Below the pieces are notes generated by a model that saw nothing but the letters and a program-made list of their open reading frames with translations, was not told the origin of the DNA and searched no databases. A program made the translations under genes and the position numbers. Source: an uncultured Alphaproteobacteria bacterium (lineage in GTDB: Bacteria > Pseudomonadota > Alphaproteobacteria > Thalassobaculales > Thalassobaculaceae). From it: 64,000 bases of DNA. Below are positions 7,487-64,000 of this stretch, in pieces. Location: positions 62,001-126,000 of the forward strand of contig CACOPQ010000004.1 in the NCBI GenBank assembly GCA_902629125.1, in the 5' to 3' direction. Each line of letters starts with the position of its first letter. The stretch's first letter is position 1.

Positions 7487-8575
7487 TTAGCACCGATAAC
7501 GCTTCATCACAAGCTCTGCAAAATCGCTTAAATTTACTCTTGCTTGATCCATAGAGGGCAGTAGAGCTACTTCATTCAACCCCATAGCTTCCCTTTCTTC
7601 CAGCATCGAAATTATCTCATCAGGAGTTCCCACAAGGCCTCCCGTTGCTCTAATCAAATTCTCCGTAACAAAACGTCTTTCCTCGGGCACGGCAAATGCA
7701 CAATGTCCTAAGTGTATTTGTTGAAACCTTTTGGAAGGCGGTGTTTCCATTTTTTCTGTAAATGCTAAATACTCATCCCAAAGATTTTGACAACTCTTAG
7801 CGATACTACTTGTATCTCCGTTATATTGATAGAGCTCATACCAATAGTGGAGAGCAGCAAGTGCCATAGCACCAATTTCATCAATGACCCTATCTGACAC
7901 CATATTTTCGCCTGGCTTTAAAACGCAGGCATAAGTAAGGGCCGAAGTATGGAAAACACTTGGCAAAACCCTATTCGCCTCAGAGGCTCCAAGTTCTATT
8001 TTCTTAAGGCTTTGCATGAGCAATGCCTTTGTTTGATTGTAAGAACATATTCGACCATCACCATAGGCACCAGTTGCCATCAAAGCTTTAGGACCATCAG
8101 CAGCTACATATATTGGGACCGGCTGTTCGACGTTGATAAACCCTTCTTTTTGATGAAGAAATTTGATCTCTCTCTTTTCTCCCTTGTGACTAAACTCTAC
8201 CTCCTTACCAGCTACCAGTGCTCTTACTACCCGCAAGTATTCCCGAAACTCGCCTATTTTCATGGGGTTCATTCCCATTACACGCATCGCAGTGTGGCCA
8301 GTTCCAATAGCTAAAAAGGTGCGACCTGGGGCGAGTGCATTAATGGTCGCAATTGAATGCGCAGTAACCGGCGCCAAGCGGGTAGAAGCTATAGCTACCC
8401 CAGTACCGAGTCTAATACGTGACGTATTTGATGCTGCCAACGCCAGTATTGCATACGTATCTGAATAGATCATTTGAGAGTCTGGGGTCCAAACGCTATC
8501 ATACCCCATTCTTTCTAGATCGACTATAATTCTCCAATCGGATGCCCGAGGAACAACCATTGTACCGAATTGCAT
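7487..8575 (-). CDS. LLM class flavin-dependent oxidoreductase (bacterial luciferase-like)
   Basis: A 362-residue single-domain TIM-barrel protein of the luciferase-like monooxygenase superfamily. Segments such as LERMGYDSVWTPDSQ, RIRLGTGVAIASTRLAPVTA and GRTFLAIGTGHTAMRVMG are typical of members using FMNH2 or reduced F420; the cofactor cannot be settled from sequence alone. The ATG is preceded by GGAGATAACTGA. It sits between the gamma-glutamyltransferase and ThDP-enzyme genes in the same direction, with short gaps (26 and 106 bases), so the three may be one transcription unit. Substrate unknown. Confidence 0.88.
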   Translation of the reverse strand: MQFGTMVVPRASDWRIIVDLERMGYDSVWTPDSQMIYSDTYAILALAASNTSRIRLGTGVAIASTRLAPVTAHSIATINALAPGRTFLAIGTGHTAMRVMGMNPMKIGEFREYLRVVRALVAGKEVEFSHKGEKREIKFLHQKEGFINVEQPVPIYVAADGPKALMATGAYGDGRICSYNQTKALLMQSLKKIELGASEANRVLPSVFHTSALTYACVLKPGENMVSDRVIDEIGAMALAALHYWYELYQYNGDTSSIAKSCQNLWDEYLAFTEKMETPPSKRFQQIHLGHCAFAVPEERRFVTENLIRATGGLVGTPDEIISMLEEREAMGLNEVALLPSMDQARVNLSDFAELVMKRYRC

Positions 8576-56345: not shown

Positions 56346-58430
56346 ATGGGCTGGGCTATTGGTGTAGACGTTGGCGGAACATTTACTGACTTTTATTTAC
56401 ATAATAAAAACACGGGTTCATTCTACATCGGCAAGACACCATCGACGCCACATAATCCAGCCGAGGCAGTTGTTACCGGATTATTAGCTGTATGTGAAAA
56501 ACATAATGTTGCTTTGGAGAACATTAGCAGACTCTCTCACGGGACTACCGTTGGAACTAACACATTAATACAGAGGTCTGGCAGTAAGGTTGCATTGATT
56601 ACGACTAAAGGATTTAAAGACCTTTTGGAGATAGGTCGCCAGACAAGACCTCATATGTATAACCTACATAAGGATTTCCCCGCCCCTCTTGTAAATCGAG
56701 ATCATAGGTTTGAACTATCTGAACGAATGGATTTTAATGGAGATGTTATCACTGCCCCTAATAAATCCGATATAGAGGAAGTCATTAATAAAATTATACA
56801 AAGTGAAGCAAAGGCGTGCGCACTTGGCTTTCTATTTTCTTTTATAAACCCCAAGCACGAAAGAGACGTAGCCAAACTGATAAGACAAAAAGCACCAGAC
56901 CTCGTCATATCACTATCCAGCGAAGTACAACCTGAGTTTCGGGAATACGAAAGGTTATCAACCACTGTCCTTAACGCTTATTTACAGCCTGTCATGAGCG
57001 TTTACTTGAAAACTCTTGAGGATGGCGTAAAGAACAATCTTCCTAATGCAAATATTGGTATCAATCAATCAAACGGGGGACTTATGTCCCCGGAAAGAGC
57101 AAGACAATTTCCAGTCAGGACCGCTTTATCTGGCCCTGCAGCAGGAGCTGTTGGCGCCTCCTTTATTGCGCAGCAAGTCGGACGTAAAAATATAATCACT
57201 CTCGACATGGGAGGAACAAGCGCTGATGTAGCTATGATCCAGGACTTCAAGGTTTCAATTTCTTTTGATCGTGATGTTGCTGGTTTTCCGGTACGTCAAC
57301 CATCAGTTGATGTCGAAACCGTTGGAGCAGGCGGTGGTTCAATAGCGTGGTTTGATCGCGATGATCTTTTAAAGGTAGGGCCAACGAGTGCTGGAGCTCA
57401 TCCAGGACCAGCCTGCTATGGACTAGGAGGAACGTCGCCAACAGTAACTGATGCCAATCTAATATTGGGACGTCTTTCACCGAGAGGATTACTAGGTGGT
57501 AGTATGCAATTAGACCCTGATGCAGCAGTGAATGTATTTAAACCCATCGCAGAACGTTTGGGCTTCAAACCAGAGCATACCGCACACGGGGTGTTAGGAA
57601 TTGTGGTAGCAAATATGGTTCGAACAATCAGAACAATATCTGTAGAGAGAGGTTATGATCCGAGACAATGCGTTTTAATGCCATTTGGTGGTGCGGGCCC
57701 GTTACATGCTCGCGATGTCGCAATTAATTTAGGTATAAATGAAATGATAATTCCTGCCGCGCCGGGAATTGTTTGCGCTCAAGGTCTTTTAGTATCCGAT
57801 CTAAAAGAAGATTTTGTTGTAAGTCGCCGCCTACCGCTAACTGACGAAAGTCTGTCGGAACTACAAAACATAATTCAAGACCTAGAAACGAGGGCAAGCG
57901 ATTGGTTCGACAGGGAAAAGATAAAGTCGGATGTTAGAAATTTCAAGTTAGCCATAGATGCAAGATATACCGGGCAAAATTTCGAACTTTCTGTGCCGCT
58001 GGCTGAAGGAAAAACAATTGAAGTTTCCAAACTTAATCAAGCCCACTCAATACATCAAAATTTTTGCGAGGTACATGAACTAGCTTATGGCTATGCAAGT
58101 GAAGCTGACCCAGTAGAAATAATCAACGTACGGCTTACAGCAATTGCAAAATTATTTGAGTTTTCAACAAAAACTTCTGCAAATAATACCCCTCCCCCCC
58201 CAAAAGCGGATGGGAAAAGGCCGGTATTTTTTGAAAGCCCTGACAAACCAACAATCGCTAAATGTTTCAATAGGACCTCCCTTGTTCCAGGACAAGAAAT
58301 TCGCGGACCTGCGATTATTGAGCAATTAGATACAACAACGCCGGTATATCCTGGCGATATTGCTAAAGTCTCCGCTGATGGACACCTAATAATCTCTATC
58401 TCATCCAAAGGTGGCAAAAACGATGGATAA
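56346..58430 (+). CDS. Hydantoinase/oxoprolinase subunit A (HyuA), pair 3
   Basis: A 694-residue HyuA subunit. IGVDVGGTFTDFYLH (5-19) at the N-terminus is the ATP phosphate loop; LSHGTTVGTNTLIQRSG, LDMGGTSADVAMIQD, TVGAGGGSIAWFDRDD and GGAGPLHARDVA follow in the usual order. It shares this framework with pairs 1 and 2 but is no closer to one than expected for paralogues of old origin. The start of the partner gene lies inside its last codons (ATGGATAA). It follows the transporter by 185 bases. Confidence 0.93.
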   Translation: MGWAIGVDVGGTFTDFYLHNKNTGSFYIGKTPSTPHNPAEAVVTGLLAVCEKHNVALENISRLSHGTTVGTNTLIQRSGSKVALITTKGFKDLLEIGRQTRPHMYNLHKDFPAPLVNRDHRFELSERMDFNGDVITAPNKSDIEEVINKIIQSEAKACALGFLFSFINPKHERDVAKLIRQKAPDLVISLSSEVQPEFREYERLSTTVLNAYLQPVMSVYLKTLEDGVKNNLPNANIGINQSNGGLMSPERARQFPVRTALSGPAAGAVGASFIAQQVGRKNIITLDMGGTSADVAMIQDFKVSISFDRDVAGFPVRQPSVDVETVGAGGGSIAWFDRDDLLKVGPTSAGAHPGPACYGLGGTSPTVTDANLILGRLSPRGLLGGSMQLDPDAAVNVFKPIAERLGFKPEHTAHGVLGIVVANMVRTIRTISVERGYDPRQCVLMPFGGAGPLHARDVAINLGINEMIIPAAPGIVCAQGLLVSDLKEDFVVSRRLPLTDESLSELQNIIQDLETRASDWFDREKIKSDVRNFKLAIDARYTGQNFELSVPLAEGKTIEVSKLNQAHSIHQNFCEVHELAYGYASEADPVEIINVRLTAIAKLFEFSTKTSANNTPPPPKADGKRPVFFESPDKPTIAKCFNRTSLVPGQEIRGPAIIEQLDTTTPVYPGDIAKVSADGHLIISISSKGGKNDG

Positions 58431-60099
58431 TGACAAAAACGAACTAGACCCAATTAGCCTCGAAATTATTTCGAATGGATTACGCTCGATTACAGACGAA
58501 TGTTTCGTTGCACTTACACGCTCCTCCTACTCAACCAATATCAAAGAACGAAAAGACCATTCTATAGCCATCGTAGATAAAGAAGGCAGGCTCGTCGTTC
58601 AAGCAGCGATGACTATTCCTCTACACATTGCCTCGATGCGCGGTTTAATGGAATGTATACTTGAAAAATTCGATGGCGATATTAACGACGGAGACGTTTT
58701 TGTTGCAAACGACCCGCATACAGCGGGGGGAACCCATCTACCAGATATCAATTACGCTATGCCAATATTTGTTGATGGTGAAATAGTCGCCTTTAGTTGC
58801 AATATCGCTCATCATGCCGATGTCGGCGGAATGGTCCCAGGCTCTATGGCAGGTGGGATGTCGGAAATATACCAAGAGGGTTTGAGAATTCCCGTGGTGA
58901 AACTTTTTCGCAAAGGAGAGTTACAGCAGGACATAATGGATATTCTTCTTTTGAATGTCCGAGTTCCTAATGAGCGTAGAGGTGACCACAACGCTCAAAT
59001 AGCGGCGTGTCGTTTAGGGGCAAGACGTCTACTTGAAGTCATTAAAGAAAATGGCCTAGAGAACGTCTTATCTGCATTTGACCAAATTATTAGCAGAACA
59101 GCTAAAAGAATGCGTTTGGCCATCAGTGAGATACCTTCAGGCTCCTACTCGTTTGAAGATGTTATGGATGGAGATGGCATTGATACAACCAACATTCCCA
59201 TATGTCTCAAAATAAATGTTTCAGGAGATAAAATAAATTTAGATTTCAGCGGTACAAGCCAGCAAGTAGGAGGGAACATCAATACTACCTTCAATGCCGT
59301 GCAAGCTAGCGCATGTTATGCCTTGATTGCAGCGCTAGATTCCGAAATGCCTAGCAATCAGGGTATTTTAGATGTTGTAGAAATTAATATTGAACCAGGC
59401 ACCCTACTGAATTCAGTGTTTCCAGCACCAGTTGCGGCGCGCGCTCATACCTGTCAAAGGGTCGTTGATGTTGTTCTGGGTGCTCTATCAAAAGCATTAC
59501 CAGAAAACGTAATAGCCGCTGCTAATGGTGCCAACACAACAGCTGTGTTTTCTGGAATTGATCCTCGCACCAATCAGCCATATTTATATTTAGAAACATT
59601 GGGCGGTGGAATGGGAGCGAGAGCCCATAAAGATGGAAAAGACGGCGTTCAGGTTCATATCACTAATACCTCAAACCTTCCAGTTGAAGCTATCGAGCAG
59701 GAATACCCTCTTCGCGTAAGTGAATATTGTTTTATCGAGGATACCGGCGGCGCTGGAAAATATCGGGGCGGAATGGCTCTGCGACGCGTGGTTACACCCG
59801 TGAATCATACCTGTATCTTTAACGGTGCTGGTGAACGTTTTAGTAATAAACCTTGGGGACTTTTCGGTGGACAGGCTGGTGAGTCAGGCCAATTCTTGAT
59901 GCGGAAAGAAAGAAAAGTGATACGGCTCGACGATAAACCCGAGGAAGTAAAGGTTTCTCCAGGGACATATATTATAGTGGAAACACCAGGTGCTGGTGGC
60001 TATGGCCCGCCCGCTGAACGATCCAAGGATCTAATAAATCAAGATCGTGAAAGTGGCAAGTTTTCAATTGAATATATTAACCATCACTATGAAAACTGA
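58423..60099 (+). CDS. Hydantoinase/oxoprolinase subunit B (HyuB), pair 3
   Basis: A 558-residue HyuB subunit. LDPISLEIISNGLRSITDEC, NDPHTAGGTHLPDINYAMPI, HHADVGGMVPGSMAGGMSEI and ETPGAGGYGPPAERSKD are the conserved blocks. The ATG at 58423 is chosen because it follows AAAGGTGG and overlaps the HyuA stop by 8 bases; an upstream GTG at 58411 would add four residues. There is no C-terminal extension as in pair 1. A DUF1330 protein gene follows after 113 bases and may belong to the transcript. Confidence 0.93.
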   Translation: MDNDKNELDPISLEIISNGLRSITDECFVALTRSSYSTNIKERKDHSIAIVDKEGRLVVQAAMTIPLHIASMRGLMECILEKFDGDINDGDVFVANDPHTAGGTHLPDINYAMPIFVDGEIVAFSCNIAHHADVGGMVPGSMAGGMSEIYQEGLRIPVVKLFRKGELQQDIMDILLLNVRVPNERRGDHNAQIAACRLGARRLLEVIKENGLENVLSAFDQIISRTAKRMRLAISEIPSGSYSFEDVMDGDGIDTTNIPICLKINVSGDKINLDFSGTSQQVGGNINTTFNAVQASACYALIAALDSEMPSNQGILDVVEINIEPGTLLNSVFPAPVAARAHTCQRVVDVVLGALSKALPENVIAAANGANTTAVFSGIDPRTNQPYLYLETLGGGMGARAHKDGKDGVQVHITNTSNLPVEAIEQEYPLRVSEYCFIEDTGGAGKYRGGMALRRVVTPVNHTCIFNGAGERFSNKPWGLFGGQAGESGQFLMRKERKVIRLDDKPEEVKVSPGTYIIVETPGAGGYGPPAERSKDLINQDRESGKFSIEYINHHYEN

Positions 60100-60212
60100 T
60101 ACGTTATCAGTAAATTCATTTTAGGAATTACCTTGGTATTAAAACCGTCATTTGCGTAATCTATAGATCCTATCTAATTTTTGGCACTTAAATATTTGAA
60201 AAGGAGATACTT

Positions 60213-60512
60213 ATGGCTAAAGCTTATATTATAGCTCTTGTAAAATTTACTGATAAAGATAGTTTTTTACAGAATTATGCATCTAAAGTTGCAGATGTTT
60301 TTTCCAAATATGACGGTCACTTTTTAGTCCGTAATTCCGAAGCATCACATAAAGAAGGACGGCCCTTTGATATTCACGTAATCGCCGAATTCTCAAGTCT
60401 AGATAAAGCAAATGAAGCTCTGGAAAGCCCTGAATATCTTGAGATAAAAAAGCACAGAGTAGGTAATAGCGACACAGAGTATGGAACGTTTGTTGTCGTA
60501 GAAGGTTTATAG
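60213..60512 (+). CDS. DUF1330 family protein
   Basis: A 99-residue single-domain protein with AKAYIIALVKFTDKDSFLQN (2-21), GHFLVRN and RPFDIHVIAEFSSLDKANEA, the DUF1330 (dimeric alpha/beta barrel) layout. Members often accompany catabolic or detoxifying enzymes and have no fixed biochemical role. A strong AAAAGGAGATACTT ribosome site precedes the ATG. It is the last plus-strand gene of the 52.9-60.5 kb group. Confidence 0.88.
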   Translation: MAKAYIIALVKFTDKDSFLQNYASKVADVFSKYDGHFLVRNSEASHKEGRPFDIHVIAEFSSLDKANEALESPEYLEIKKHRVGNSDTEYGTFVVVEGL

Positions 60513-60882: not shown

Positions 60883-60959
60883 TGGTCGGGGTGGACGGAT
60901 TCGAACCGCCGACCCTCTGCTCCCAAAGCAGATGCGCTACCAGGCTGCGCTACACCCCG
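60883..60959 (-). tRNA. tRNA-Pro (anticodon UGG)
   Basis: The minus strand folds as a cloverleaf: acceptor CGGGGTG with CACCCCG, D stem GCGC/GCGC, anticodon stem TCTGC/GCAGA with loop TTTGGGA (anticodon TGG), and T stem CGGCG or GGCGG-type arm around TTCGAAT. Discriminator A and an encoded CCA end at 60883. It reads CCA and other proline codons. It lies directly upstream of the dead complex I subunit gene on the same strand. Confidence 0.96.
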
Positions 60960-61171
60960 ACTGCCCTATTCATAGGGAAAAAATCACAGCAAATCAAGCA
61001 CTTACAAAAGTTTTTTATAATGATTACGAATTTAAGAGTCGAAAACCAACGTTAATAAAAAAAATACAATTATAACAATAATTTAACGATTATTCCTCAA
61101 TACTCTCCTCTGCTCCAAAAAATCCGAAACCGGATAATTAATCGGACTTTTATCGGACCTGTTTTTTTAGA
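60960..61171. other. Gap with no recognised feature
   Basis: A+T-rich sequence upstream of tRNA-Pro, where its promoter should lie. ATCCGAAACCGGATAA near 61125 is a short imperfect palindrome without clear meaning. Confidence 0.4.
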
Positions 61172-61402
61172 TTATTTGTTTGGATCATCCAAATAGGGGG
61201 TTGCGAAGTTTGGTGGATAAGCATGAACATATGTGCCCTTTCCATCAAATGGATAGTAAATTTGCTTTGGGATATATCGTTCAGCAGTCGTTCCCAACCT
61301 TTTAGCATGTTCTATAACAGCCGAGCGTTTCGCTGTGTGGTAACTTCTATAGTAATTAGGGTCCTCAATCCTCAGAGAAATGGTTACATTTAGGAATACG
61401 GT
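61172..61402 (-). pseudogene. C-terminal remnant of an unrecognised protein
   Basis: The minus strand is open for 76 codons after a TAA at 61403-61405 and ends TAA at 61172. It reads IEDPNYYRSYHTAKRSAVIE, HAKRLGTTAERYIPKQIYYP, then FDGKGTYVHAYPPNFATPYL. This Tyr- and Pro-rich, strongly protein-like sequence has no ATG, GTG or TTG in its first half, so the 5' end appears lost. Starting at an internal TTG would leave only 39 residues. The family is not recognised. Confidence 0.5.
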
Positions 61403-61512
61403 TTAGAAACCACTTTTAAGGTGCCATAACCCTGCAGAGAATACGCGATTAAATAGAGTAACTAAGGCCGTAGTGCCACACTTGCAGAAGTAAAGGCATA
61501 TCTTGACCGTAG

Positions 61513-62055
61513 CTATGAGTTACAGGAGGACGGTTTTCCCTTTGCCATGATTTTACGATAAAAAAAGGCAATCAAGCCTATGATTACTGCTCCAAATAAC
61601 GTCGGTATAAAAATAAAAGACCAACTAGGTTCCGAAAAAAATATAATGATTGGATTTGATGCTGCTGGTGGATGAGAAACTCTGAGGACTTGCATTCCAA
61701 CCACAGTAAAACACAGCGCTATTGGTAATAGCCAGAAATTAGCACCAAAAGTCATCAAAAAAGCCACCCCTATCAAAGATGCTAAAAAATGCCCTGCTAT
61801 AAGATTTTTCGCTTGAGAAAACTCTGATTTTGGAACTGCAAATAATAAAAAAATCGAGGCTCCAAAAGATCCAATAATCGATGGATAGCCGGAAGCAATT
61901 GAAATAACGTAGAGAACCATAATTGCAAAACCCGATATAATCCCACTTATGACAATTCGTGTCAGCGATTTCATATTAGTGATCAACCGAAAATAGGCGC
62001 GGCTTTTGTTCAGATAGGCCTTGAATACGACTTTTTTTCTTTTAAAAGGCAGCAT
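61513..62055 (-). CDS. HPP family membrane protein
   Basis: A 180-residue inner-membrane protein with four to five hydrophobic helices from about residue 32. The hallmark His-Pro-Pro motif is in VSHPPAASNPIII, after VVGMQVLR. HPP-family proteins are linked to nitrite transport in plants and cyanobacteria; bacterial roles are largely unknown. The first 27 residues are basic and cytosolic; a start at the internal Met28 (61974) is possible. Its ATG at 62055 lies 7 bases from the Fur-box palindrome, so iron or metal control is likely. Confidence 0.8.
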   Translation of the reverse strand: MLPFKRKKVVFKAYLNKSRAYFRLITNMKSLTRIVISGIISGFAIMVLYVISIASGYPSIIGSFGASIFLLFAVPKSEFSQAKNLIAGHFLASLIGVAFLMTFGANFWLLPIALCFTVVGMQVLRVSHPPAASNPIIIFFSEPSWSFIFIPTLFGAVIIGLIAFFYRKIMAKGKPSSCNS

Positions 62056-62061
62056 TTTTAT

Positions 62062-62102
62062 GTATCGATAATGAGAATGAGAATCATTCTCATTATCGAT
62101 AC
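62062..62102. promoter_or_regulatory. Fur-box-like 41-bp palindrome between HPP and formate dehydrogenase genes
   Basis: GTATCGATAATGAGAATGA at 62062-62080 and TCATTCTCATTATCGATAC at 62084-62102 are perfect inverted copies around GAA. The core AATGAGAATGAGAATCATTC (62070-62089) is a strong match to the classic Fur consensus of overlapping NATAAT/GAGAAT hexamers. It lies between two divergent starts (62055 and 62136) and can govern both. Fur or a Fur-like regulator (Mur, Irr) would repress both genes when metal is plentiful. A transcript hairpin is the alternative reading. Confidence 0.75.
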
Positions 62103-62135
62103 TTTATCTTAAAAGTAAACTCTAAACAGGAGGAA

Positions 62136-63335
62136 ATGATGAAGGTGCTATGTGTATTGTACGATGACCCAAAAAATGGAATGCCCAAAAGTTATCCACT
62201 AGCCAATCTTCCAAAAATTGAGGTATACCCGGATGGAATGACCCTACCATCACCCAAAGGCCGGGACTTTTCGCCAGGTGAGTTGCTGGGGTGTGTGTCC
62301 GGTGAACTCGGTTTGCGGAAATTTTTAGAAGATGCCGGTCACACGCTAGTTGTCACGTCTGACAAAGATGGTACTGGTTGCCAAGCGGACAAGGAGATAG
62401 TAGATGCTGATGTAGTAATATCTCAGCCATTTTTCCCATATTACCTAACAAAAGAGCGCATGCAATCGGCACCTAACTTAAAGATGGCAATCACTGCTGG
62501 AATTGGGTCTGATCACGTAGATTTAGCTGCTGCCATAGAGCGGAAAATCGATGTCGTTGAGGTGACATACTGCAACTCGCGATCAGTCGCGGAGCACATC
62601 GTGATGATGATTCTGAGCCTTGTTCGCGATTATCACAACCAACATCAGATTGTAAACTCGGGTGGTTGGAATATTGCAGATGCCGTATCTAGATCATACG
62701 ACGTTGAGGGCATGCATGTCGGAACTGTAGCTGCTGGTAGGATCGGTATCGATGCGTTAAGAAAGATGAAGCCGTTTGATGTGCACTTGCATTATTTTGA
62801 TAGACACCGGCTACCCGCTGCTGTTGAAGAAGAGTTAAACTTAACTTTCCACGAGACGGTTGAGTCGATGATCAAGATTTGTGACGTTGTCACAATAAAC
62901 TGCCCGCTTCATCCGGAAACAGAGGATCTTTTCAATCACGAAATGATAGGAAAGATGAAGACTGGCGCCTACATAATCAATACAGCGAGAGGAAAAATTT
63001 GCAATAGGGAAGCAATTGCTGATGCTCTAAAAACTGGTAAACTTGCAGGATATGCAGGTGATGTTTGGTTCCCTCAGCCTGCACCCAACGACCATGTTTG
63101 GCGAACTATGCCTAATCATGGCATGACACCACATACCTCCGGAACGAGCTTGTCTGCACAGGCAAGATACGCTGACGGTGTGCGAGAGATCCTTGAATGC
63201 TTTTTAGAGGATCGGGCGATCAGAGATGAGTATCTTATTGTGAAGGACGGGGCGCTTGCTGGGATGGGGGCACATTCTTACAGCGAGGGTAGTGCTACCT
63301 CTGGTTCAGAGGAGGCCGCCAACTACAAAAAGTGA
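62136..63335 (+). CDS. fdh: NAD-dependent formate dehydrogenase (metal-free type)
   Basis: A 399-residue D-2-hydroxyacid-dehydrogenase-fold enzyme, almost residue-for-residue aligned with Pseudomonas-type FDH. It keeps the catalytic set (Pseudomonas numbering plus one): N147, R285 (NTARG), Q314 (WFPQPAPND) and H333 (TPHTSG). D222 in FDRHRLP favours NAD over NADP. It oxidises formate to CO2 with NAD, cytosolic, without molybdenum or iron. The start is the first of two ATGs after AGGAGGAA. A Fur-box palindrome lies 34-74 bases upstream. A stable hairpin follows the stop. Confidence 0.95.
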   Translation: MMKVLCVLYDDPKNGMPKSYPLANLPKIEVYPDGMTLPSPKGRDFSPGELLGCVSGELGLRKFLEDAGHTLVVTSDKDGTGCQADKEIVDADVVISQPFFPYYLTKERMQSAPNLKMAITAGIGSDHVDLAAAIERKIDVVEVTYCNSRSVAEHIVMMILSLVRDYHNQHQIVNSGGWNIADAVSRSYDVEGMHVGTVAAGRIGIDALRKMKPFDVHLHYFDRHRLPAAVEEELNLTFHETVESMIKICDVVTINCPLHPETEDLFNHEMIGKMKTGAYIINTARGKICNREAIADALKTGKLAGYAGDVWFPQPAPNDHVWRTMPNHGMTPHTSGTSLSAQARYADGVREILECFLEDRAIRDEYLIVKDGALAGMGAHSYSEGSATSGSEEAANYKK

Positions 63336-63345
63336 CATCCAACAA

Positions 63346-63391
63346 AATGCTCCGATGTATCTTTGGCAGTTCCATGAACCATCGGAGCATT
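63346..63391 (+). terminator. Hairpin downstream of formate dehydrogenase
   Basis: AATGCTCCGATG at 63346-63357 pairs perfectly with CATCGGAGCATT at 63380-63391, giving a 12-bp stem with a 22-base loop, 11 bases past the fdh stop. A TTTTT follows 8 bases later (63400-63404), not directly, so it may be a terminator or an mRNA-stabilising 3' structure. Confidence 0.5.
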
Positions 63392-63485
63392 AAAATAGAT
63401 TTTTAAGCTCAAATACTTTTTAGCGTTTGAACTCAAATCAATGAATTTTGGTTTGATAAATTTTATTTCTTTCGGTGAGCCATTA

Positions 63486-64000
63486 ATGTCAGAAGCTTTT
63501 TGCAAGGTCATTTCGTGCATTAAAAATAAAGACTTCGAAACAGCCCTAAACATTCTAAAAAATATCGAGAAAACATCATCACTTAGTTGGCACCAGGCTT
63601 ATCTTATCGGATTTTGTTTAAAGCAACTGGGTGATATTCCAGATTCGATCATTTATTATAAAAAGTCATTGTCCATACTACCCAACCATCCTCTTACCCT
63701 TAATGCAATGGGTATTTCATACCAAAACATGGGTAACCTTAGCCAAGCGCGGCACCATTTCGAAGAATCAATAAAACTCCTGAAAGTCCCGTATTTCCCG
63801 AAGTGGTCTAGCTATAGCCTAATGTGTCGAACTTTGCTAAGCGAAGGGCTCAATAGCCTGGGGACAGTTTTGCATCTACTTTCAGAGAAACAAACAGACA
63901 AGCCGGAGTTGAAACAAGACGCGCTCCGTTCCTATCTTGAAGCTGTACGAATTGAAGGTGAAGTTCTAGCATTTAAGGCAAAGAAGCAAACACGGGTGAG
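63486..64000 (+). CDS. TPR protein, 5' part only
   Basis: ATG at 63486 (after GGTGAG) opens a frame that runs off the window end, at least 171 codons. It contains TPR-type helices: FETALNILKNIEKTSSLSWH, YLIGFCLKQLGDIPDSIIYY, NAMGISYQNMGNLSQARHHF and further helical sequence. An upstream in-frame ATG at 63441 would add 15 residues but lacks a ribosome site. Function unknown because the C-terminus is missing; such proteins may carry a glycosyltransferase or sulfotransferase domain later. Confidence 0.7.
   Translation, partial: MSEAFCKVISCIKNKDFETALNILKNIEKTSSLSWHQAYLIGFCLKQLGDIPDSIIYYKKSLSILPNHPLTLNAMGISYQNMGNLSQARHHFEESIKLLKVPYFPKWSSYSLMCRTLLSEGLNSLGTVLHLLSEKQTDKPELKQDALRSYLEAVRIEGEVLAFKAKKQTRV

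Follow-up and report, generated by a model that had tools for sequence, protein, structure and literature searches.

A Fur-box palindrome between an island-borne metal-free formate dehydrogenase gene and a divergent HPP gene in an uncultured alphaproteobacterium

Marine heterotrophs can draw reducing power from the oxidation of formate, and iron is often scarce in surface seawater. Iron-sparing swaps under Fur replace Fe-SOD with Mn-SOD, ferredoxin with flavodoxin and Fe-S fumarase with FumC. The locus described here lies in a 64,000-nucleotide stretch of alphaproteobacterial DNA (the window) and raises the question of whether formate oxidation is subject to a swap of the same kind. A preliminary description had read it as a metal-free, NAD-dependent formate dehydrogenase (FDH) gene and a divergent HPP protein gene under a near-ideal Fur palindrome, the metal-free enzyme being derepressed in iron scarcity to replace Fe-S/Mo formate dehydrogenases. 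If true, formate oxidation would join the iron-sparing swaps, by way of a metal-free FDH that Fur controls and that stands beside an Fe-S/Mo FDH, and the locus would show a plankton gene module, carried by a tRNA island, being brought under host iron control. The open-licence literature, outside which most subscription papers fall, yielded no Fur-controlled metal-free FDH, in keeping with the earlier statement that such coupling is not known to be described.

The palindrome and the genes on either side

The 41-bp palindrome (62062..62102, assigned to neither strand) consists of two 19-nt arms, 62062-62080 and 62084-62102, that are 100% complementary and 3 nt apart, exactly as first described. 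No other inverted repeat of the window has perfect arms as long as 12 nt at a spacer of 0-8 nt, and the longest perfect arm in 40 dinucleotide shuffles of the window was 11 nt, against the 19 observed. At its centre lies a 21-bp two-dimer Fur box (62072..62092, likewise without strand; TGAGAATGAGAATCATTCTCA) that agrees with the classical consensus at 18/21 positions, while 62073-62091 agrees with the 19-bp consensus at 16/19. The near-ideal Fur consensus claimed for the palindrome is therefore present, with a match beyond chance, and all three mismatches of the 21-bp box are GAGAAT in place of GATAAT, or the mirror of that. The 7-1-7 core TGAGAATCATTCTCA (62078-62092) is perfectly symmetric, is the only fully symmetric 7-1-7 site of the Fur box and occurs exactly once in the genome assembly to which the window belongs (68% complete).

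The site resembles the classical Fur box and two-dimer operator (the P. aeruginosa box, bound by the Fur of M. gryphiswaldense, MgFur) in its overlapping GATAAT-type hexamers, in its position between divergent genes and in the -10-like element inside it; it differs in that symmetry is perfect out to 41 bp and in that the genes are those of an FDH and an HPP protein, not of iron uptake. The -10-like element belongs to a promoter-like site for HPP on the minus strand (62092..62119; TTTACT, 16 nt, GATAAT; 9/12), a weak call because the eight such sites in 61000-64000 are close to the shuffled mean of 6.5. No good promoter-like site was located upstream of FDH. The palindrome also scores as a terminator-like hairpin, a reading rejected because it sits between divergent genes.

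To its right, the plus-strand FDH gene (62136..63335, 399 aa) matches the equivalog model NF005750 at 654 bits (cut-off 329) over residues 1-384, and its best solved relative is 2go1 (647 bits over 399 aa), which bears out its identification as a metal-free NAD-dependent enzyme. The match to such enzymes of the Pseudomonas 101 and Moraxella type (2nac, 2go1; NF005750) is full-length, but the FDH of the window differs from them in belonging to a marine SAR11/SAR116 clade and in having an HPP partner. Translation probably starts at the second ATG, 62139, since SAR11 and SAR116 matches begin at residue 2. To the left, on the minus strand, lies the divergent gene for a 180-aa HPP family membrane protein (61513..62055), which scores 116 bits against PF04982 (TM_HPP; gathering score 27) and confirms the second gene of the earlier reading. 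Its HPP motif (H128-P129-P130) is invariant across eight sequences; given the poor conservation of its first 27 residues, it may start at 61974 rather than 62055.

The FDH-HPP pair in other genomes

Of 97 loci examined by tblastn, 83 have HPP next to FDH, and 82 of these are distinct (L161 repeats L007). In 80 of the 82, all SAR11, HPP is upstream and co-directional with 76-196 nt between the matched ends; in the other two, both SAR116, it is divergent from FDH, the arrangement seen in the window. The 14 more distant FDH loci (56-71%; L115-L128) all lack HPP within the fetched flanks. As judged from sequence comparison, the coupling of FDH to HPP is real and old.

The strictness of this pairing yields a claim, open to test, about a membrane family of which little is characterised, namely that formate is carried by some HPP proteins. 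Maeda 2014, as cited in PMC7438415, reported that an HPP protein transports nitrite, and PMC7438415 also describes carriers common to formate and nitrite in the FNT family; since HPP here also adjoins FDH, a role as formate carrier may fairly be inferred by analogy. The protein of the window is like the HPP nitrite transporters in being a PF04982 membrane protein with the HPP motif; it is unlike them in its gene partner, FDH, and in that formate is only a proposed substrate. Within the open-licence literature (subscription papers being mostly outside it), no HPP formate carrier is described.

There is an appreciable chance, well short of even, that the HPP protein beside FDH instead carries nitrite or another anion and that its linkage to FDH is unrelated. 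The transport activity reported for an HPP protein is indeed for nitrite, and the predicted fold is uninformative: the AlphaFold model has a mean pLDDT of 78, Foldseek gave no match to the PDB below an E value of 2.4, VIA-align reached a top Z of 8.2 (an Rnf subunit and a designed helical channel), which is within noise for helical models, and a profile search for solved relatives found no solved chain. Against an unrelated linkage stand the constancy of the pairing in two gene orders throughout the FDH clade, its absence from the flanks of the more distant FDHs and the sharing of FNT carriers by formate and nitrite, all of which favour formate as the predicted substrate.

At some SAR11 loci HPP-FDH is immediately preceded by a small ORF that contains Cys and by eye resembles a SufU/IscU-type scaffold (L082 4048-4440, L080 4047-4439 and L114 3739-4167).

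Fur, related sites and the metal-dependent enzyme

Three FUR-family stretches, on contigs C14, C33 and C36, are present in the genome to which the window belongs (68% complete, 80 contigs). The C14 protein scores 118 bits against PF01475, and its nearest solved chain is MgFur (4ray, 160.9 bits), followed by 5fd6/5fd5 (157.7 bits), which we take to be rhizobial Fur/Mur. A Fur protein is thus at hand, the two scores being too close to separate Fur from Mur by sequence alone. The C36 protein is Zur-like, although its PRK11639 score of 110 bits is under the cut-off of 167. The C33 stretch (L003 1441-1860) has an internal stop and adjoins fabA/fabB-like ORFs, a usual place of irr; it could represent a broken irr or else an error of assembly. 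According to PMC4506495, two dimers of MgFur occupy the P. aeruginosa Fur box, with Lys15, Tyr56 and Arg57 recognising DNA; the DNA-contact stretches that hold these residues align identically in C14, residue numbers being matched by eye. The view reported in PMC3751524 is that Fur has kept its global role in iron regulation in Caulobacterales, Rhodospirillales and Sphingomonadales.

A relaxed Fur pattern, TGANAATNATTNTCA, occurs with up to two mismatches at 266 places in this genome, against 152 for the reversed control, and with up to one mismatch at 25, mostly inside genes. Because the exact core occurs once and the looser matches fall mostly inside genes, no Fur regulon of this motif is claimed. 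Of these places, use is made only of the FDH/HPP site and of two promoter sites by iron-linked genes: C6:32313, in the gap that separates a TolQ/ExbB-type gene from the gene of a TonB heme receptor (TIGR01785, 442 bits against 317), and C7:68789, 42 nt before a superoxide dismutase ORF. Elsewhere in the order, the exact 15-mer core is found at four sites in 3 of 35 other genomes, where ORFs read by eye, and not named from a family search, include a TonB-receptor-like gene (L102), a PepSY-like gene nearby (L105) and nitroreductase-like and ferrochelatase-like genes (L103, L104). Look-alikes of the palindrome are also present in 18 plasmid records, of which six regions were opened and two of the six are unannotated. 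The Azospirillum site, ahead of a siderophore gene cluster, is clearly iron-linked; that of Photobacterium is one gene before a siderophore receptor, that of Acaryochloris is merely in the neighbourhood of an ExbD gene, and the neighbours of that of Amphritea are not iron-linked by name. A 25-mer of the palindrome in two viral contigs, inside a small ORF of a phage-like contig (L172) and at the end of a small ORF (L173), is taken as coincidence.

The preliminary description had asked for an Fe-S/Mo FDH elsewhere in the genome, and one is encoded on contig C6: an alpha subunit scoring 769 bits against TIGR01591 (cut-off 666), with no partner subunit spotted beside the gene. It supplies the metal-dependent counterpart of an iron-sparing pair. 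The cut-off of TIGR01591 was exceeded in 7 of the 17 genomes searched, namely this one, three of the four others of the genus, two others of the family and G279. None of three SAR11/SAR116 carriers of the pair (G241, G453 and G454; 99%, 90% and 73% complete) has a match over the cut-off; their best scores are 53-57 bits, from proteins of 679-698 aa that by size are probably NuoG. Mo-type FDH genes (fdhF, fdsB, fdhD) are described in cultured SAR11 in PMC3160333, in which HPP is nowhere mentioned.

Conservation is where the earlier reading lacks support. A Fur operator was found upstream of none of the 82 distinct orthologous FDH-HPP pairs, an outcome that had been named in advance as refuting and that formally counts as such. 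The best site in these pairs agrees with the degenerate box at no more than 16/21 positions, against 21 in the window and 11-18 in shuffled SAR11 stretches, with the region read being shorter than 400 nt in 4 of the 82 loci. Fur control is therefore not a conserved property of the pair, as far as operator sequences can tell, and the operator is seen in this genome only, where the island-borne pair coexists with a core Mo-FDH; this bears on conservation and not on the match itself. Since no Mo-FDH scored over the cut-off in any of the three SAR11/SAR116 carriers, a switch made to spare metal would be pointless in them, and the missing operator is softened, though not removed, as counter-evidence, those genomes seemingly having no enzyme to spare. 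A pair without a metal-dependent counterpart leaves no enzyme in need of sparing, and the pair that has a Mo/Fe-S FDH beside it carries a Fur box, which is one case and not a statistical pattern.

In the model proposed here, Fur would act on both divergent genes, HPP and FDH, through the palindrome as their common operator within the promoter region. In iron-replete cells Fe(II)-Fur would cover the operator, probably by means of two dimers that overlap, and hold both genes low; when iron falls, Fur would leave, and the metal-free NAD-dependent FDH and HPP would be made, the one oxidising formate without iron or molybdenum in place of the host Mo/Fe-S FDH and the other bringing formate into the cell. 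The Fur box, the metal-free FDH, the divergent HPP gene, the host Fur, the Mo/Fe-S FDH alpha subunit and the coupling of FDH to HPP at all 82 loci speak for this part of the original reading, as do the related site by the TonB heme receptor gene and the exact cores by iron-type genes elsewhere in the order; the operator missing from the same loci speaks against it, as do the single exact core in the genome, the closeness of the Fur and Mur scores, the lack of a good promoter-like site for FDH and the lack of a partner subunit gene beside that of the Mo-FDH. On balance, repression of the acquired FDH/HPP module by Fur, probably for metal sparing, is rather probable, and Fur binding taken by itself is more probable still. 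The likeness to the iron-sparing swaps under Fur is that one genome has, for a single reaction, both a metal-free enzyme with a Fur box and an Fe-S/Mo enzyme; the differences are that the reaction is formate oxidation, that derepression is only predicted and that the metal-free gene comes from an island.

The same regulatory anatomy would fit Fur, or a Mur-like Fur homologue, tying the pair to a general iron (or manganese) starvation response and not to metal sparing, for example so that formate from the environment supplies NADH at times when the Fe-S-rich respiratory chain is scarce. That two of the solved chains nearest to C14 are presumably rhizobial Fur/Mur lends this some weight. An oxalate/formate antiporter of Caulobacter that is raised 3.1-fold by iron limitation, with no such effect of fur mutation (PMC3751524), is also consistent with it. 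A starvation response of this sort is nevertheless unlikely, though not negligible, given that a metal-free enzyme, a Mo/Fe-S counterpart and a Fur box together are what metal sparing predicts.

A tRNA-Pro island as the source of the pair

FDH is present at E <= 1e-100 in 1 of 36 genomes of the order, that of the window, and absent from the other 35. A scan of named genomes returned 490 FDH relatives, the best 80 of which are 79 SAR11 proteins and one SAR116 protein, 85-86% identical. A class-wide draw gave FDH at E <= 1e-120 in 8 of 385 genomes, and in the SAR116 family it is found at E <= 1e-100 in 2 of 61, one of these being the contig of L007. In a tree of 32 rows chosen from 98 sequences, the FDHs of the window, SAR116 and SAR11 form one clade (100/100), within which the grouping of the window with SAR116 is weak (80/47), and no donor is named for that reason.

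The left border of the island is a minus-strand tRNA-Pro gene (TGG; 60883..60961, equivalent to 884-962 of the extended locus L113), with the core side to its left. Further copies of this tRNA-Pro lie beyond the right end of the window at L113 6469-6547 (86%) and 7886-7964 (85%). They cut off a 5.5-kb segment with HPP, FDH, an ORF of no named family and a plus-strand gene for a TPR protein (63441..63998, running past the window end; 272 aa in full), and a second segment of 1.3 kb with an FAD oxidoreductase. At the equivalent tRNA-Pro of a genome of the same genus (G006) there is a different insert, roughly 8.3 kb long and closed at the far side by a 34-nt tRNA repeat; synteny between the two genomes returns at L113 17148, giving a variable stretch of 16.2 kb in the genome of the window. 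With three tRNA-Pro copies and differing content in G006, the locus has the form of a tRNA-bounded island, and the sequence evidence indicates that the FDH/HPP pair is cargo of a hypervariable tRNA-Pro island. The division of cargo segments by repeated tRNA-Pro at a hot spot is shared with tRNA-linked islands, including tycheposons. A tycheposon requires its own integrase; the island differs in that no integrase was seen among the 12 larger ORFs from HPP to MnmH, 2 of which gave no Pfam match. Similarly, no recombinase was seen among the larger ORFs at the hot spot.

It is improbable that the palindrome is the operator of some other regulator, or a relic of the island, with iron not involved. 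In favour of such a reading, the 41 bp of symmetry far exceed the length of a Fur box, the palindrome is single in the genome, the C33 stretch is broken and C36 Zur-like, and orthologous pairs lack it. Against it, 18 of the 21 central positions agree with the Fur box, comparable boxes in Azospirillum and in the order adjoin siderophore or iron-uptake-type genes, and the larger ORFs between the tRNA-Pro copies include no regulator gene.

Under the Fur model, the FDH/HPP module would have come as tRNA-Pro island cargo from a SAR11/SAR116-like source, and the Fur operator would have been added after the transfer. A fuller version, in which the acquired FDH and an HPP formate carrier joined the host Fur regulon as an iron- and molybdenum-sparing backup, and in which SAR11 and SAR116 represent an end state with the metal enzyme replaced and Fur control unneeded, can be put forward tentatively, its chances being slightly below even.

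Left of the tRNA-Pro gene, 56346-60512 holds ORFs that by eye are hydantoinase/oxoprolinase-type A and B subunits, together with a DUF1330 protein; the gene order is kept in G006, as befits the core side of the island border. The G006 insert includes a 2493-aa repeat protein. About 4-13 kb past the right end of the window, in the stretch replaced by other content in G006, lies a selenium cluster (L113 8164-17116, contig C4) with a selenate-type ABC binding protein (TIGR04553), an ATPase, a permease-like ORF, an oxidoreductase-SelD fusion, SenB (TIGR04348), SenA (NF041186) and MnmH. The four named models are over their cut-offs, and the cluster corresponds to selenoneine biosynthesis and 2-selenouridine.
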